Source: an uncultured Erysipelotrichaceae bacterium | GTDB lineage: Bacteria > Bacillota_I > Bacilli_A > RFN20 > CAG-826 | Reading direction: 5' to 3' | DNA: 64,000 nt | Assembly: GCA_902791935.1 (NCBI GenBank) | Contig: CADAXQ010000004.1 | Span: forward strand, 62,001-126,000 | Shown here: in pieces, positions 3,430 to 61,825 of the stretch | Position numbering within the stretch: the stretch's first letter is position 1 | Layout: each line of letters starts with the position of its first letter | Notes under the pieces: generated by a model | Seen by the model: the letters and a program-made list of their open reading frames with translations, nothing else | Databases searched by the model: none | What the model was told of the DNA's origin: nothing | Made by a program: the position numbers and the translations under genes

Positions 3430-3476
3430 ACGACAAAAAATGTCGCATATAAAATAAAAATGTCGCATACGGAGAA
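3430..3476. promoter_or_regulatory. Proximal operator repeats, -10 and RBS of the 3483 gene
   Basis: CGACA-A5-TGTCG (3431-3445) gives a second short palindrome, and AATGTCGCAT occurs at 3439 and again at 3459, 20 bp apart. A TATAAA -10 candidate (3448-3453) lies between the two copies and GGAGAA (3471-3476) is the ribosome site. A protein bound here would block the promoter, so autorepression is likely but not shown. Confidence 0.55.
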
Positions 3477-3482
3477 TACTTT

Positions 3483-4811
3483 ATGAAATGGATGGAATCG
3501 GAACAATTAGAATGCAAAGAACGATACACGGATACGATGGCAAGAGAGATCGTGTCTTTTCTTAATGCGTCTGGCGGCACCATCGTTATTGGGGTGAAAG
3601 ATGATGGAACGCTTGTTGGTGTGGACAAAGTTGACGAGACCTTACGAAAATTGTCCGATGTTATCACTATGCAAATTGAGCCGAATCCGCAAGATGAAAT
3701 CCGGACGGAATTAAAATTCGAAGATGGCAAAACCTTGATTTTGATTCACATTGATAAGGGAAACAAAAATATCTATTGCCAAAAGAGATATGGTTTTTCT
3801 TCGACGGGGTGTTCTATTCGCGTTGGCACAACTTGCCGGGAAATGACCTCTGAACAAATTAAGATTCGTTACGAAAGAAATTATTTCGATACTGAATATA
3901 TGCTCAAGAAGCGTTCTTCTTTGGCTGATTTATCGTTCCGTGAACTGAAAATCTACTATGCCGATAAAGGCTTTCATTTGGATGATGTCAGTTTCGAAAC
4001 CAATTTGAATCTTCGTAATCCCCAAGGGGAATACAATCTCCTGGCGGAATTGTTGGCGGATCGAAACTATATTCCGCTCATTTTCGTAAAATTTAGAGGA
4101 AACGATAAATCGTCCATCTCAGAACGGAATGACTATGGATGCGGCTGTTTGATTACGACCTATCACAAAATCAAAACGCGATTGATGGCGGAGAATATCT
4201 GTCTCTCTGACACTACCGTTAGGCCGAGAAAAGACCGATATTTATTTGATTTCGACTGTGTGAATGAAGCCGTTTTAAACGCGTTGGTTCATAACGATTG
4301 GACCATCACTGAACCGCAAATCTCAATGTTTTCGGACCGCATTGAAATTCTTTCTCACGGCGGCTTGATGAACGGCATGACAAAACAACAGTTTTTTGAA
4401 GGAATAAGCAAGCCGAGAAACGCCACGTTGATGCGCATTTTTATGAACGTGGACTTGGTAGAACATACGGGGCATGGCGTGCCGACGATTGTGCACCGTT
4501 ATGGCAAGAACGTGTTTGAAATCGAAGACGACTATATCCGTTGCACAATACCTTTTGATCGCGAGGTGTTAGAAGCAACGAAAAAGCCTGTGGTCAGTAA
4601 GAACGTTGTGGATCAGGTTGGCTTAAACAAAACAGAGCACGTTTTAGCGGCATTGTTAATCACCCATCCCACGATGAAGACTTCTGACATCGCCAAACAA
4701 ATCGGCGTTTCGGTGCGTACGGCGGAACGCACATTGTCTTCCTTGGAAAACAAAGGGGTCATCCTCCGTACCGGAACGAAAAAATCCGCCAAATGGGAAG
4801 TCATTCGATAA
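3483..4811 (+). CDS. AlbA_2 / HATPase_c_4 putative transcriptional regulator (paralog 1)
   Basis: This 442-residue protein starts with an AlbA_2 (Schlafen AAA_4-like) nucleic-acid-binding domain of about 115 residues, with E-x-LECKE, GGTIVIGVKDDG and YGFSSTGCSIRVG motifs. A HATPase_c_4-like domain follows (NAVLNALVHNDW, GHGVPTIV). A C-terminal winged HTH ends it (IAKQIGVSVRTAERTLSSLENKGVI). The family is usually annotated as ATP-binding protein or 'transcriptional regulator'; its ligand is not known. The linker before the HTH (VVSKNVVDQVG) does not contain the TGTCGCAT upstream repeat, unlike the paralogs at 58-61 kb. The gene stands alone between a terminator and the metK leader. Confidence 0.8.
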   Translation: MKWMESEQLECKERYTDTMAREIVSFLNASGGTIVIGVKDDGTLVGVDKVDETLRKLSDVITMQIEPNPQDEIRTELKFEDGKTLILIHIDKGNKNIYCQKRYGFSSTGCSIRVGTTCREMTSEQIKIRYERNYFDTEYMLKKRSSLADLSFRELKIYYADKGFHLDDVSFETNLNLRNPQGEYNLLAELLADRNYIPLIFVKFRGNDKSSISERNDYGCGCLITTYHKIKTRLMAENICLSDTTVRPRKDRYLFDFDCVNEAVLNALVHNDWTITEPQISMFSDRIEILSHGGLMNGMTKQQFFEGISKPRNATLMRIFMNVDLVEHTGHGVPTIVHRYGKNVFEIEDDYIRCTIPFDREVLEATKKPVVSKNVVDQVGLNKTEHVLAALLITHPTMKTSDIAKQIGVSVRTAERTLSSLENKGVILRTGTKKSAKWEVIR

Positions 4812-57818: not shown

Positions 57819-57859
57819 AAATACCCTTGGACAAAATCCTTGGGGAAGTTTCACAATGA

Positions 57860-57883
57860 TGGCGGAGCGAGAGGGATTCGAAC
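57860..57883 (-). other. 24-nt tRNA 3'-end fragment (att-site remnant)
   Basis: Read on the minus strand, GTTCGAATCCCTCTCGCTCC followed by GCCA is the T-loop, 3' T-stem strand, acceptor strand and CCA of a tRNA, cut exactly at the T-loop: the 5' T-stem partner (GAGGG) is absent. This is the classical core left by tRNA-integrating elements. Its acceptor differs from that of the tRNA-Ser at 61735, so it comes from another tRNA. It sits at the border between AT-rich accessory DNA and the two regulator genes. No integrase is in view. Confidence 0.5.
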
Positions 57884-57992: not shown

Positions 57993-59615
57993 TTATTCGG
58001 CTGAACGGCCTGTATTGTTTGAAGCAAAACGATATTTTCCTTTTCCAAGCCCTTTGACTGGCTCCAAAACGCCCAAGGCCATCAGCCTTCTCAGGTGATT
58101 TCCTGCTGTGTTTCTGCTGCAACCCAGATGGCCGGCGATATCTTGAGCGCCGAAAGGCCTGTCATTAAGTTCCACTGCTATTTTGATCAGATCATTCTTC
58201 ACATTCTTGCTATATCCGCTTTTCTCGATTCGACTACGAATGCCCAGGCTTTTGCTGCCAATGCCCAAACTTTTGCTGTCAATGCCCAAATTTTCATTGT
58301 CAACGCCCAATTTTTCATTAATCTGCGACAAGAATTCCTTATTCGCTGGAATAACTACCGAAGTGATGTCGGCATCGGTTGAAAACACTTTGTAATAAGG
58401 TATGTCGGATCCGTTATCTATTGCAGCTTTTTTTGCCTCACCAATCCCTGTCCCGTAACTTTCTATTATTCCGAGTGACTTGAACATGTCTCTGATTTCT
58501 GGATTCACTGAATCCCTCTCGTGAAAGACATATCCTTTGTTGAGATCTTCCAAAGTCAGGGGAGGAAGGGGAGCATTGTAGTTCACGATGTTGATTTCAT
58601 TTTCTGACACATAAACCTGTATTGTCTTCCCGCACTCATAGTTCTTGTGAACGATGGCATTCGCCAAAAGCTCACGAACAGTAATATAAGGGTAATTGCT
58701 TATTTCTCTGTGATTGGCTTTATTCGGTTCTCTTATCGTCAGCGTGCGGATGAAATGATCACGGATGTAGTCAAGACAGGCATAGTATTGTTTCCATATG
58801 GGCCCTTTGAATTCTTTGGACTCCATTCTCCTCATGCTTCCCAATGTATTTGTGATTACCTCGACATAGGCATAAGGAATGTATTGACTCGGATCGGTTG
58901 AAAACATGAGAAGAGCATAGTTCTTGACAGAATTGACCGAAGTTTCGTTTTCGGGAGAAAGCTTCAAGATCTTCACCAGTTCCTCTTTGCTCATGTTTTC
59001 ATACAATTCGCGCTTGCTTGTGAGCGAAAGGTATTCGTTCATCAATCCGAGATTAAGATTATTTGTTGTGTATTCGAGCGACATTTCCGATGAAAAGCGA
59101 TAATTTGAAAACTTACGCAGCAGCTGGTATCTCTCCTGCGGGTTCGCAAGCCTGGTGTCGCTTTCAATCCTGATGTACTGGCCCTCTTTAAGTACAACTC
59201 TTTTGTCTCTCGTGGCCTTGTCCGTCACGGAAAACGGGCCGCCAAATTGGCGTTCAACATAAACAAGAAGGTATTTTCTGCCATGGAATTCATTGGTGAT
59301 GACCTCAAAGCGAACATTGGGTGCGATAAGAGGCCTCAAGGAAAGAATGGCGTTTTTTGCAATTTCTAGTCTTTTGTCATCTATTCCAATGATTGGCAGT
59401 TTGGGAACGGCTTTAGCTTCTGATGAAGCTTCTTCTTCAACTCCGATGTATAGGAAAGATATCTCGTTGTCATAATAATTGTTTCCGTAAGCACAGATAG
59501 TCTTCAGGATTTTTCCAAGCTGTTTCTCGCTTGACTTGTATTCGATGCTCGAGCACTCTGGTTCTTTATTGGAAAGAATGGTGTTGGCTTCCTTCTTGAT
59601 TGCTTCAATGTTCAT
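57993..59615 (-). CDS. AlbA_2 / HATPase_c_4 / wHTH regulator with 7-residue repeat linker (paralog 3)
   Basis: The 540-residue protein begins with an AlbA_2 domain (IEYKSSEKQLGKILKTICAYGN, FLYIGVEEE) and continues with a HATPase_c_4-like region (RELLANAIVHKNY, SYGTGIGEAKK). A tandem linker of four 7-residue repeats, LGVDNEN, LGIDSKS, LGIGSKS, LGIRSRI, lies at about residues 431-458. A winged HTH follows (DIAGHLGCSRNTAGNHLRRLMALGVLEP). The linker DNA repeat (21 bp) is the same word as the repeat array over its own promoter. Codon use differs from the glycan locus (more AGG, ATA, CTC), suggesting transfer. The family is DNA-binding in other members; the ligand is unknown. Confidence 0.85.
   Translation of the reverse strand: MNIEAIKKEANTILSNKEPECSSIEYKSSEKQLGKILKTICAYGNNYYDNEISFLYIGVEEEASSEAKAVPKLPIIGIDDKRLEIAKNAILSLRPLIAPNVRFEVITNEFHGRKYLLVYVERQFGGPFSVTDKATRDKRVVLKEGQYIRIESDTRLANPQERYQLLRKFSNYRFSSEMSLEYTTNNLNLGLMNEYLSLTSKRELYENMSKEELVKILKLSPENETSVNSVKNYALLMFSTDPSQYIPYAYVEVITNTLGSMRRMESKEFKGPIWKQYYACLDYIRDHFIRTLTIREPNKANHREISNYPYITVRELLANAIVHKNYECGKTIQVYVSENEINIVNYNAPLPPLTLEDLNKGYVFHERDSVNPEIRDMFKSLGIIESYGTGIGEAKKAAIDNGSDIPYYKVFSTDADITSVVIPANKEFLSQINEKLGVDNENLGIDSKSLGIGSKSLGIRSRIEKSGYSKNVKNDLIKIAVELNDRPFGAQDIAGHLGCSRNTAGNHLRRLMALGVLEPVKGLGKGKYRFASNNTGRSAE
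58239..58322. repeat. In-gene tandem repeat, four copies of 21 bp
   Basis: Copies begin at 58239, 58260, 58281 and 58302 with core AATGCCCA (AACGCCCA in the last). On the coding strand each reads TGGGCATT plus 13 nt and encodes LGI-x-S-x-S. The period equals two helical turns. The promoter array at 59627-59710 has the same 21-bp period and a core differing by one base (AATGCACA). Confidence 0.9.
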
Positions 59616-59626
59616 ACTAATGGTCT

Positions 59627-59710
59627 AATGCACATATATTATGCACCAATGCACAGGTTTTTACAAGCAATGCACAAATATTTCTTGCCAATGCACAAGT
59701 TTTTAGAAAA
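59627..59710. promoter_or_regulatory. Promoter operator array of the 57993-59615 gene, 21-bp period
   Basis: AATGCACA occurs at 59627, 59648, 59669 and 59690, exactly 21 bp apart, with one extra ATGCACC at 59641. On the minus strand a promoter TTGTAA, 17-bp spacer, CATAAT is embedded in the array just upstream of the ATG at 59615, so binding would block transcription. The same 21-bp word is repeated inside the gene. Confidence 0.8.
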
Positions 59711-59978: not shown

Positions 59979-60021
59979 CAGTGACATATACAGTGACATA
60001 TACAGTGACATTTAGTATAAT
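59979..60021 (+). promoter_or_regulatory. Promoter with 12-bp operator array of the 60046 gene
   Basis: CAGTGACAT occurs at 59979, 59991 and 60003, exactly 12 bp apart. The middle copy supplies the -35 box GTGACA (59993-59998), with a 17-bp spacer to TATAAT (60016-60021). The operator and promoter are therefore the same DNA, a strong sign of autorepression. The identical 9-bp word, inverted, recurs three times at 12-bp spacing inside the gene. Confidence 0.82.
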
Positions 60022-60045
60022 ATCAAAGAAGGATTTAGCATCAAG

Positions 60046-61401
60046 ATGCAAAATTTGGGAACGGAAAACGAAAGTTTGGAATTCAAGAAAACAACCTCAG
60101 AAAGAAAAGCCGCCTGCGATGATATTGCTGCCATATTGAATAAAAAAGGTTCAGGCACGCTTTACTTCGGGGTTTGGCCTAATGGAGATGCCAAGGGGCT
60201 CATGGTCAACGCCTCCACTCTCAACGACGTTGCCGAGGCTATCAAGACAAATATCCGCCCCATGATTTATCCCTCTATCGAAAAGGTCACAATCGATGGC
60301 GCGGACCTGATCAAGGTTCTGTTTTCAGGAACCGAGATACCATATTCCTCGCATGGCCATTACTATAAGAGGGTGCATGACAGGACCGAGGAAATGACTC
60401 CTCACGAACTTAGATCTATTCTCAATTCAACCGACTATACCTCAGAGTGGGAGAACAACCCATCTCTCGAATCATTCAATGATGTGGACCACGAAGCTCT
60501 GAAGAGTTTTTACGATACCGCTGTCGGCTGTGGCAGGCTTGTGCCCATGGAGAAATACGATGAGGTTGAACTGCTGCGGGGCTTAGGCTTAGCTTCGAAA
60601 GAGAGTCTCACCAACGCCGGTCGTATGCTTTTTTCCAAAAAGGGTCCAGTGTCCTTGAAGGCGGCGGTCTATCTTACGGATGAGAGAATCAACTTCGCAG
60701 ACATCAAGCGTTATTCCGGGAATATCTACAATTTGGTGAATGCCGCGGTCAACTACATCAGGACGAACATACGATGGCGTGTGGAGGGAAGTGATGGGGT
60801 TCAAAGGATGGAAATCCCTGAAATACCGATGGATGCCGTTCGAGAGATCGTGGTCAACGCTTTTGCCCATGCGGACTACAGAGGAGACACAGAACATGAG
60901 ATAGACATAACTCCTACTTTGGTCGAGATATACAGCCCCGGTCCATTCCCGATGAACCTCACACCAGAGGATTTCGTCTCCGAGCAAAGGAAGTCCATCG
61001 AGAGGAACCACGTGATCCTCAACATGCTGTTTAAATGCAAATACGTGGAAATGTTCGGAAGCGGATTCAAAAAGGTGTTTCATCTATGTGAGCAAGCGGG
61101 TGTGAAAATATCTTCGAAATCAGATCCGCTAGGATTCTCGTTCTTCTTTTATCGCCCTGAATTGCGTGATGTCACTGATGATGTCACTGTAAATGTCACT
61201 GATGAATTCCCATTGAAGGCATTAGATATAAGAATCCTTATGGCACTCAAGGAGAACCCCACTTTGACCCGAGAACAGCTGGCGAAAACCTTTCAAAAAA
61301 ACATAAGGACGGTGCAAAGAAGCCTCAACAATCTCAAGCAAGCGGAAAAGATAAGACGGATTGGCACGGACAGGACTGGATACTGGGAAGTATTAAAATA
61401 A
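60046..61401 (+). CDS. AlbA_2 / HATPase_c_4 / wHTH regulator with DVT repeat linker (paralog 2)
   Basis: The 451-residue protein has an AlbA_2 domain (NESLEFKKTTSERKAACDDIAAILN, GTLYFGVWPNGDAKG), a HATPase_c_4-like domain (REIVVNAFAHADYRGD, MFGSGFKKVFHLCEQAG), a 12-residue linker DVTDDVTVNVTD (about 375-386), and a winged HTH (LTREQLAKTFQKNIRTVQRSLNNLKQAEKIRRIG). The linker DNA is three copies of ATGTCACTG at 12-bp spacing, the inverse of the promoter repeat. It is divergent from paralog 3. AAGGA about 17 nt ahead of the ATG is a weak ribosome site. Codon use again differs from the glycan locus. Confidence 0.85.
   Translation: MQNLGTENESLEFKKTTSERKAACDDIAAILNKKGSGTLYFGVWPNGDAKGLMVNASTLNDVAEAIKTNIRPMIYPSIEKVTIDGADLIKVLFSGTEIPYSSHGHYYKRVHDRTEEMTPHELRSILNSTDYTSEWENNPSLESFNDVDHEALKSFYDTAVGCGRLVPMEKYDEVELLRGLGLASKESLTNAGRMLFSKKGPVSLKAAVYLTDERINFADIKRYSGNIYNLVNAAVNYIRTNIRWRVEGSDGVQRMEIPEIPMDAVREIVVNAFAHADYRGDTEHEIDITPTLVEIYSPGPFPMNLTPEDFVSEQRKSIERNHVILNMLFKCKYVEMFGSGFKKVFHLCEQAGVKISSKSDPLGFSFFFYRPELRDVTDDVTVNVTDEFPLKALDIRILMALKENPTLTREQLAKTFQKNIRTVQRSLNNLKQAEKIRRIGTDRTGYWEVLK
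61169..61204. repeat. In-gene tandem repeat, three copies of 12 bp
   Basis: ATGTCACTG begins at 61169, 61181 and 61193. It is the exact reverse complement of the promoter word CAGTGACAT, with the same 12-bp period. It encodes DVTD-DVTV-NVTD immediately before the HTH. Confidence 0.92.
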
Positions 61402-61734: not shown

Positions 61735-61825
61735 TGGCGGAGGAATAGGGATTCGAACCCTAGCGCAGTGTTGCCCGCCTACGAGCTTTCCAAGCCCGCC
61801 CCTTCGACCACTTGGGTATTCCTCC
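61735..61825 (-). tRNA. tRNA-Ser(GGA)
   Basis: A complete class II tRNA: acceptor GGAGGAA/TTCCTCC, D-arm with AAGTGGTCGAAGGGG, anticodon loop CTTGGAAAG giving anticodon GGA (codons TCC/TCT), a long variable arm, T-arm TAGGGTTCGAATCCCTA, discriminator G and an encoded CCA. It reads on the minus strand, divergent from the rluD-like gene. Confidence 0.95.

Follow-up and report, generated by a model that had tools for sequence, protein, structure and literature searches.

Several described systems resemble the locus reported here. The intragenic second operators lac O2 and gal OI act together with a promoter operator by looping. In plasmid Rep iteron autoregulation, the same word occurs at the initiator's promoter and in a tandem array. 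A further case is lambda ori, which lies within gene O: the protein binds a tandem array in its own gene, with a specificity that varies among related phages, and the 19-bp iterons function in replication (PMC4488673). TrlG (temperature restricting locus) of Photorhabdus combines a growth-arrest phenotype with the SLFN_AlbA_2 and HATPase_c_4 architecture considered below; the portion of its description that was consulted gives neither an array nor a self-match (PMC7554251). For AlbA_2/HATPase_c_4 regulators as such, no description of a self-encoded operator or array was found in the open-licence papers searched.

Here, a gene of this architecture carries matching tandem arrays at its promoter and within its own codons. 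It lies in the window, the whole 64-kb stretch of DNA that was analysed, and has the following features:

60046..61401, plus strand: coding sequence of 451 aa with SLFN_AlbA_2, HATPase_c_4 and winged HTH domains
60064..60399, plus strand: SLFN_AlbA_2 domain (PF04326), residues 7-118; E 7.5e-18, 65.6 bits, cut-off 25.3
60895..61107, plus strand: HATPase_c_4 domain (PF13749), residues 284-354; E 1.9e-11, 44.2 bits, cut-off 26
61219..61356, plus strand: winged HTH (HTH_24), residues 392-437, the proposed word reader; 22.2 bits, cut-off 21.9
59979..60011, plus strand: promoter array of three CAGTGACAT copies at 12-bp spacing, outside the coding ORF; proposed autoregulatory operator
59993..59998, plus strand: putative -35 box GTGACA, from the middle promoter copy
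60016..60021, plus strand: putative -10 box TATAAT
61169..61201, minus strand: in-gene array of three CAGTGACAT copies at 12-bp spacing, encoding DVTDDVTVNVTD in a low-confidence linker

All three domains of SLFN_AlbA_2/HATPase_c_4 (COG2865-like) regulators are present in the product. In an AlphaFold2 model (mean pLDDT 76.8; alignment of only 5 sequences, from window and genome rows), the winged HTH consists of helices and C-terminal strands. Residues 373-388 have a pLDDT below 50 in this model and are exactly the residues that the in-gene array encodes. That the array codes for DVTD-DVTV-NVTD immediately before the HTH, as the initial annotation had it, is confirmed. Few close relatives were matched in scans of genome contigs and viral contigs; PADLOC and NCBIfam searches gave weak or domain-level matches, and a PDB search gave a single partial relative, 3lmm.

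All coordinates previously given for six copies of one word at 12-bp spacing are correct: CAGTGACAT starts at 59979, 59991 and 60003 on the plus strand, and its exact reverse complement at 61169, 61181 and 61193. The window contains no further copy; dinucleotide shuffles of it give an expectation of 0.30, and none of 100 such shuffles yields six. Nor are CAGTGACAT arrays common in the genome: across its 1.93 Mb, the tandem pair is confined to the focal locus and the core GTGACA-N6-GTGACA occurs only as the four focal pairs, with GTGACA at 12-bp spacing nowhere else. Tandem arrays of comparable strength number four in the whole window, every one in the SLFN_AlbA_2/HATPase_c_4 gene family: two are the focal ones, at promoter and linker, one is in the linker of the neighbouring paralogue, and one is at the promoter of a further family member (3436-3469). 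In the focal promoter, GTGACA comes from the middle copy and has a 17-bp spacer to TATAAT, so that the word itself would be the -35 box, as had been predicted. The two focal arrays are inverted relative to each other, and their 41-nt arms, 1157 nt apart, are 83% complementary.

The divergent paralogue next to the focal gene differs from it in both word and period, and its own promoter and linker match each other, in agreement with the initial annotation:

57993..59615, minus strand: divergent paralogue of 540 aa, SLFN_AlbA_2 and HATPase_c_4
59627..59705, strand not assigned: paralogue promoter array, AATGCACAA-type word, 21-bp spacing
58239..58319, strand not assigned: paralogue linker array, AATGCCCAA-type word, 21-bp spacing

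It has an AATGC(A/C)CAA-type word six times, with three copies at the promoter and three in the linker; the spacing is 21 bp and the sense direct. The third family member in the window (L013, ORF 3453-4811) has a promoter array of AAAAATGTCGCATA at 20-bp spacing, and a matching linker array was not found in it. In the focal genome there are 21 HATPase_c_4 genes, most of them with a promoter word unlike those of the others; over a dozen distinct words occur among these copies. Sampled members of the genus and family often have 0 to 5 such genes, and many relatives have none. A tRNA-like 3' end (TGGCGGAGCGAGAGGGATTCGAAC; 57858-57882) and the similar 3' end of a tRNA-Ser gene (61735-61825) flank the focal gene and its paralogue, and may point to a tRNA site as an insertion point; of the two, only the tRNA-Ser gene is called by ARAGORN.

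The relation between linker and promoter was examined in a family sample of 202. Of these, 201 came from the family, order, class and phylum of the source, and all 201 had upstream sequence and an intact N-terminal domain; the Mycoplasmopsis arginini orthologue completed the set. A tandem array in the linker between the ATPase and the winged HTH is present in 57 of the 202. For every linker array, a score was computed against the upstream 250 bp of the same gene and against the upstream regions of other members. For the 57 genes, the own-pair sum is 701.5 against 439 when permuted (z = 18.4); for 20 representatives, one per 45%-identity cluster, it is 268.5 against 160 (z = 9.2); and with permutation inside clusters only, 411 against 304 (z = 6.85). 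The observed value was reached in 0 of 5000 permutations in each case. Control regions gave z values of 1.0 (downstream sequence), -0.2 (first 250 nt of the gene) and -0.4 (-450 to -250). The focal linker array scores 23 against its own upstream 250 bp, where the maximum in 1000 dinucleotide-preserving shuffles is 12, and for 11 examples the observed score was never reached in 1000 dinucleotide shuffles. Taken together, the permutations and shuffles bear out the earlier judgement that a chance match is very unlikely, and they rule out an artefact of composition.

A clear promoter match exists for 27 of the 57 linker arrays. About half have no upstream match in the sequence examined, among them the GTVN type and most of the TTQE type. 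In the GTVN-type linkers of L041, L055 and L171-L173, which consist of ATGGCACTGTAA repeats, the matching word is absent upstream, so in-gene arrays can occur alone. Many other members have a promoter array alone, and several a linker array alone. Of the 27 upstream arrays with a match, ten fall within an ORF that stays open to the start and could therefore be coding; the focal array is not among them. The initial annotation had proposed the self-encoded operator as a property of the family. This stands insofar as the match recurs in at least 8 of the 20 independent clusters and in the named relatives L253 (Mycoplasmatota) and L262 (Fusobacteriota), but it is not universal, as the counts above make plain. 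More distant plasmid relatives mostly have linker arrays, without a promoter match in the 200-300 bp examined, and several of them are located within operons. Type I restriction operons, with hsdR, hsdM or hsdS as the adjacent gene, contain L253, L269, L270 and L272, which come from Mycoplasmopsis, Aeromonas, Picosynechococcus and Aliarcobacter.

The matched arrays are direct in 16 cases and inverted in 11, as expected of a DNA site. This bears on a reading at the RNA level, in which the protein, or intramolecular pairing, acts on word copies in the mRNA. In its favour, transcription of both arrays of an inverted pair would yield complementary RNA, nucleic-acid binding has been attributed to AlbA_2 as well, and NCBI labels relatives 'RNA-binding domain-containing protein'. 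However, the 16 direct matches could not pair, and the focal promoter array overlaps the -35 box upstream of the predicted transcription start and would thus be absent from the mRNA. RNA pairing is rejected on both counts, and action on RNA of any kind has next to no likelihood.

Upstream tandem arrays are present in 87 of the 201 members, where block shuffles give an expectation of 1.2 and a coding control gave 0. Their periods are mostly 10-12, 20-24 and 30-33 bp, corresponding to about one, two and three helical turns; such helical phasing is the pattern that protein-binding sites would show. An 11-bp promoter period is common where an in-frame linker array is absent. In the GTGACA group the promoter array overlaps the predicted -35 box; arrays outside this group show no excess overlap with predicted sigma-A promoters (8 of 25, against 7.2 expected).

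Comparison of relatives shows how the words change. The M. arginini orthologue L253 (57% identity) has GTGACA in both arrays, at 12-bp spacing and inverted, and the word again forms the -35 box; L057, a second focal orthologue, also has GTGACA in both arrays, and the layout GTGACA-17-TA(T/C)AAT is common to the two. In a third orthologue, L196 (52% identity), the promoter reads GGGACA/GAGACG and the linker has NVP/NVS in place of VT. Promoter and linker share TGTCCGTTTGAA in L247, TGTCGGTGTAAA in L183 and TGTCGGTTTA in L236, and the encoded peptides differ between these members. In L262, the Fusobacterium relative of the neighbouring paralogue (42% over 430 aa), the linker and the upstream region share another word, ACTACCAAAGAA. 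At the level of sequence, every paralogue or group of orthologues uses a word of its own, and where the promoter array differs the linker array differs with it. The region upstream of L262 (1307-1446) contains its own linker word in inverted arrangement and, separately, a TGTCGGTTTG array resembling that of another subfamily; this second array could reflect cross-regulation between members.

The repeated unit is DNA. In the L132 group, the linker words, spaced 12 and then 11 bp, fall in different frames; the promoter array that they match has an 11-bp period. In L258 and L260, from gut phage-type contigs, TACCG recurs exactly every 11 bp through all three frames and the peptide is not repeated. 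Spacing of 11 bp across frames indicates that DNA, not peptide, is repeated. One alternative is that the linker repeat is a tetrapeptide feature, its promoter resemblance being secondary or due to biased composition. With all periods allowed there are 63 linker arrays, 49 of them with an in-frame period of 12, and this, like the linker-only members, would suit such a feature. It is nonetheless very improbable, given the permutation and shuffle controls, the matches in both orientations, and peptides that are wholly different between members and follow the promoter word. A peptide repeat as such is rejected, as largely refuted, on the out-of-frame 11-bp arrays together with the promoter matching.

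Taken in aggregate, these data make it probable that the focal gene encodes an autoregulator that binds its own word and carries a second operator array in its own linker. In the proposed mechanism, the C-terminal winged HTH would read a short word with GTGACA as its core, which recurs roughly every helical turn, and oligomers on the three promoter copies would cover the -35 box and repress transcription. The second array of the same word, ~1.16 kb downstream, occupies linker codons between the GHKL-type ATPase and the HTH, where a disordered linker would tolerate almost any peptide and hence offer a place for it. This array would most likely serve as a second operator, either through a loop with the promoter array or by acting as a roadblock to elongation. 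Tight control would be plausible in light of the growth arrest associated with TrlG and of the relatives in type I restriction loci.

The assignment of the winged HTH as the domain that reads the word is consistent with a weak trend. Among members with promoter arrays, winged HTH similarity tracks word similarity in distant pairs (beta 0.16), compared with betas of -0.17 for AlbA and -0.01 for the ATPase (jackknife errors about 0.06 for all three). L035 and L186, which share TGGCGNAATAA, have a winged HTH similarity of 0.37 and an ATPase similarity of 0.05.

A lesser but serious possibility is that only the promoter array functions, and that the linker array is a template-switch copy, made in either direction and tolerated in a disordered linker. 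L057 contains a 39-nt near-exact inverted copy between its arrays, unrepeated spacers included, which suggests occasional copying of sequence between promoter and linker and looks recent. L066 and L180 keep the promoter array despite decay of the linker array, so that not every member needs the in-gene array; the low model confidence of the linker also fits. Against this, at least 8 independent clusters have their arrays at the same position in the linker, co-variation holds inside clusters, and the periods are helical. Moreover, the Bacilli and Mycoplasma orthologues, whose proteins are 57% identical, retain the core at promoter and linker alike, where a passive copy should have eroded. A tentative and somewhat doubtful extension of the autoregulator reading is that the linker codons form a heritable operator record, copied between promoter and linker in either orientation. 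Private words would then diversify with the protein, yielding many mutually orthogonal, self-recognising regulators per genome.

Another reading takes the array as an iteron-type replication or partition site of a mobile element, the promoter copies being the initiator's autoregulatory operator. Lambda ori inside gene O is a precedent (PMC4488673): the spacing here is iteron-like and the tandem sites lie inside the gene, as a lambda O-type origin requires. The patchy accessory distribution, with 21 copies here and none in many relatives, and the presence of some members on plasmids point the same way. However, replication genes are absent from the focal gene neighbourhood, a single chromosome can carry many copies that differ in word, and type I restriction operons contain some of the relatives; this reading is improbable.

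If the focal gene is indeed such an autoregulator, the linker protein sequence would appear to be dictated by the DNA word recognised, which would couple coding sequence directly to regulatory sequence in a large family of patchy distribution whose members are often restriction-linked. The binding sites of hundreds of uncharacterised regulators could then be obtained straight from sequence, providing a ready source of orthogonal pairs of regulator and operator, and within single genes one could follow how a DNA-binding domain and its site co-evolve.

The focal protein has the same domain content as the COG2865-like SLFN/AlbA_2 predicted transcriptional regulators. Like plasmid Rep systems, the locus combines a word at its own promoter with a tandem array, but a replication function is improbable here. 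As in lac O2 and gal OI, a second operator, here a proposed one, lies in a transcribed gene, but those operators lie in the target genes of another regulator, whereas this array lies in the linker codons of the regulator itself. The nearest precedent is lambda ori in gene O, where likewise a tandem array lies inside the gene of the binding protein (here a proposed one). In contrast to lambda ori, the units here are 12 or 21 bp, match the array at their own promoter, diversify in parallel with it, and belong to a chromosomal regulator family.
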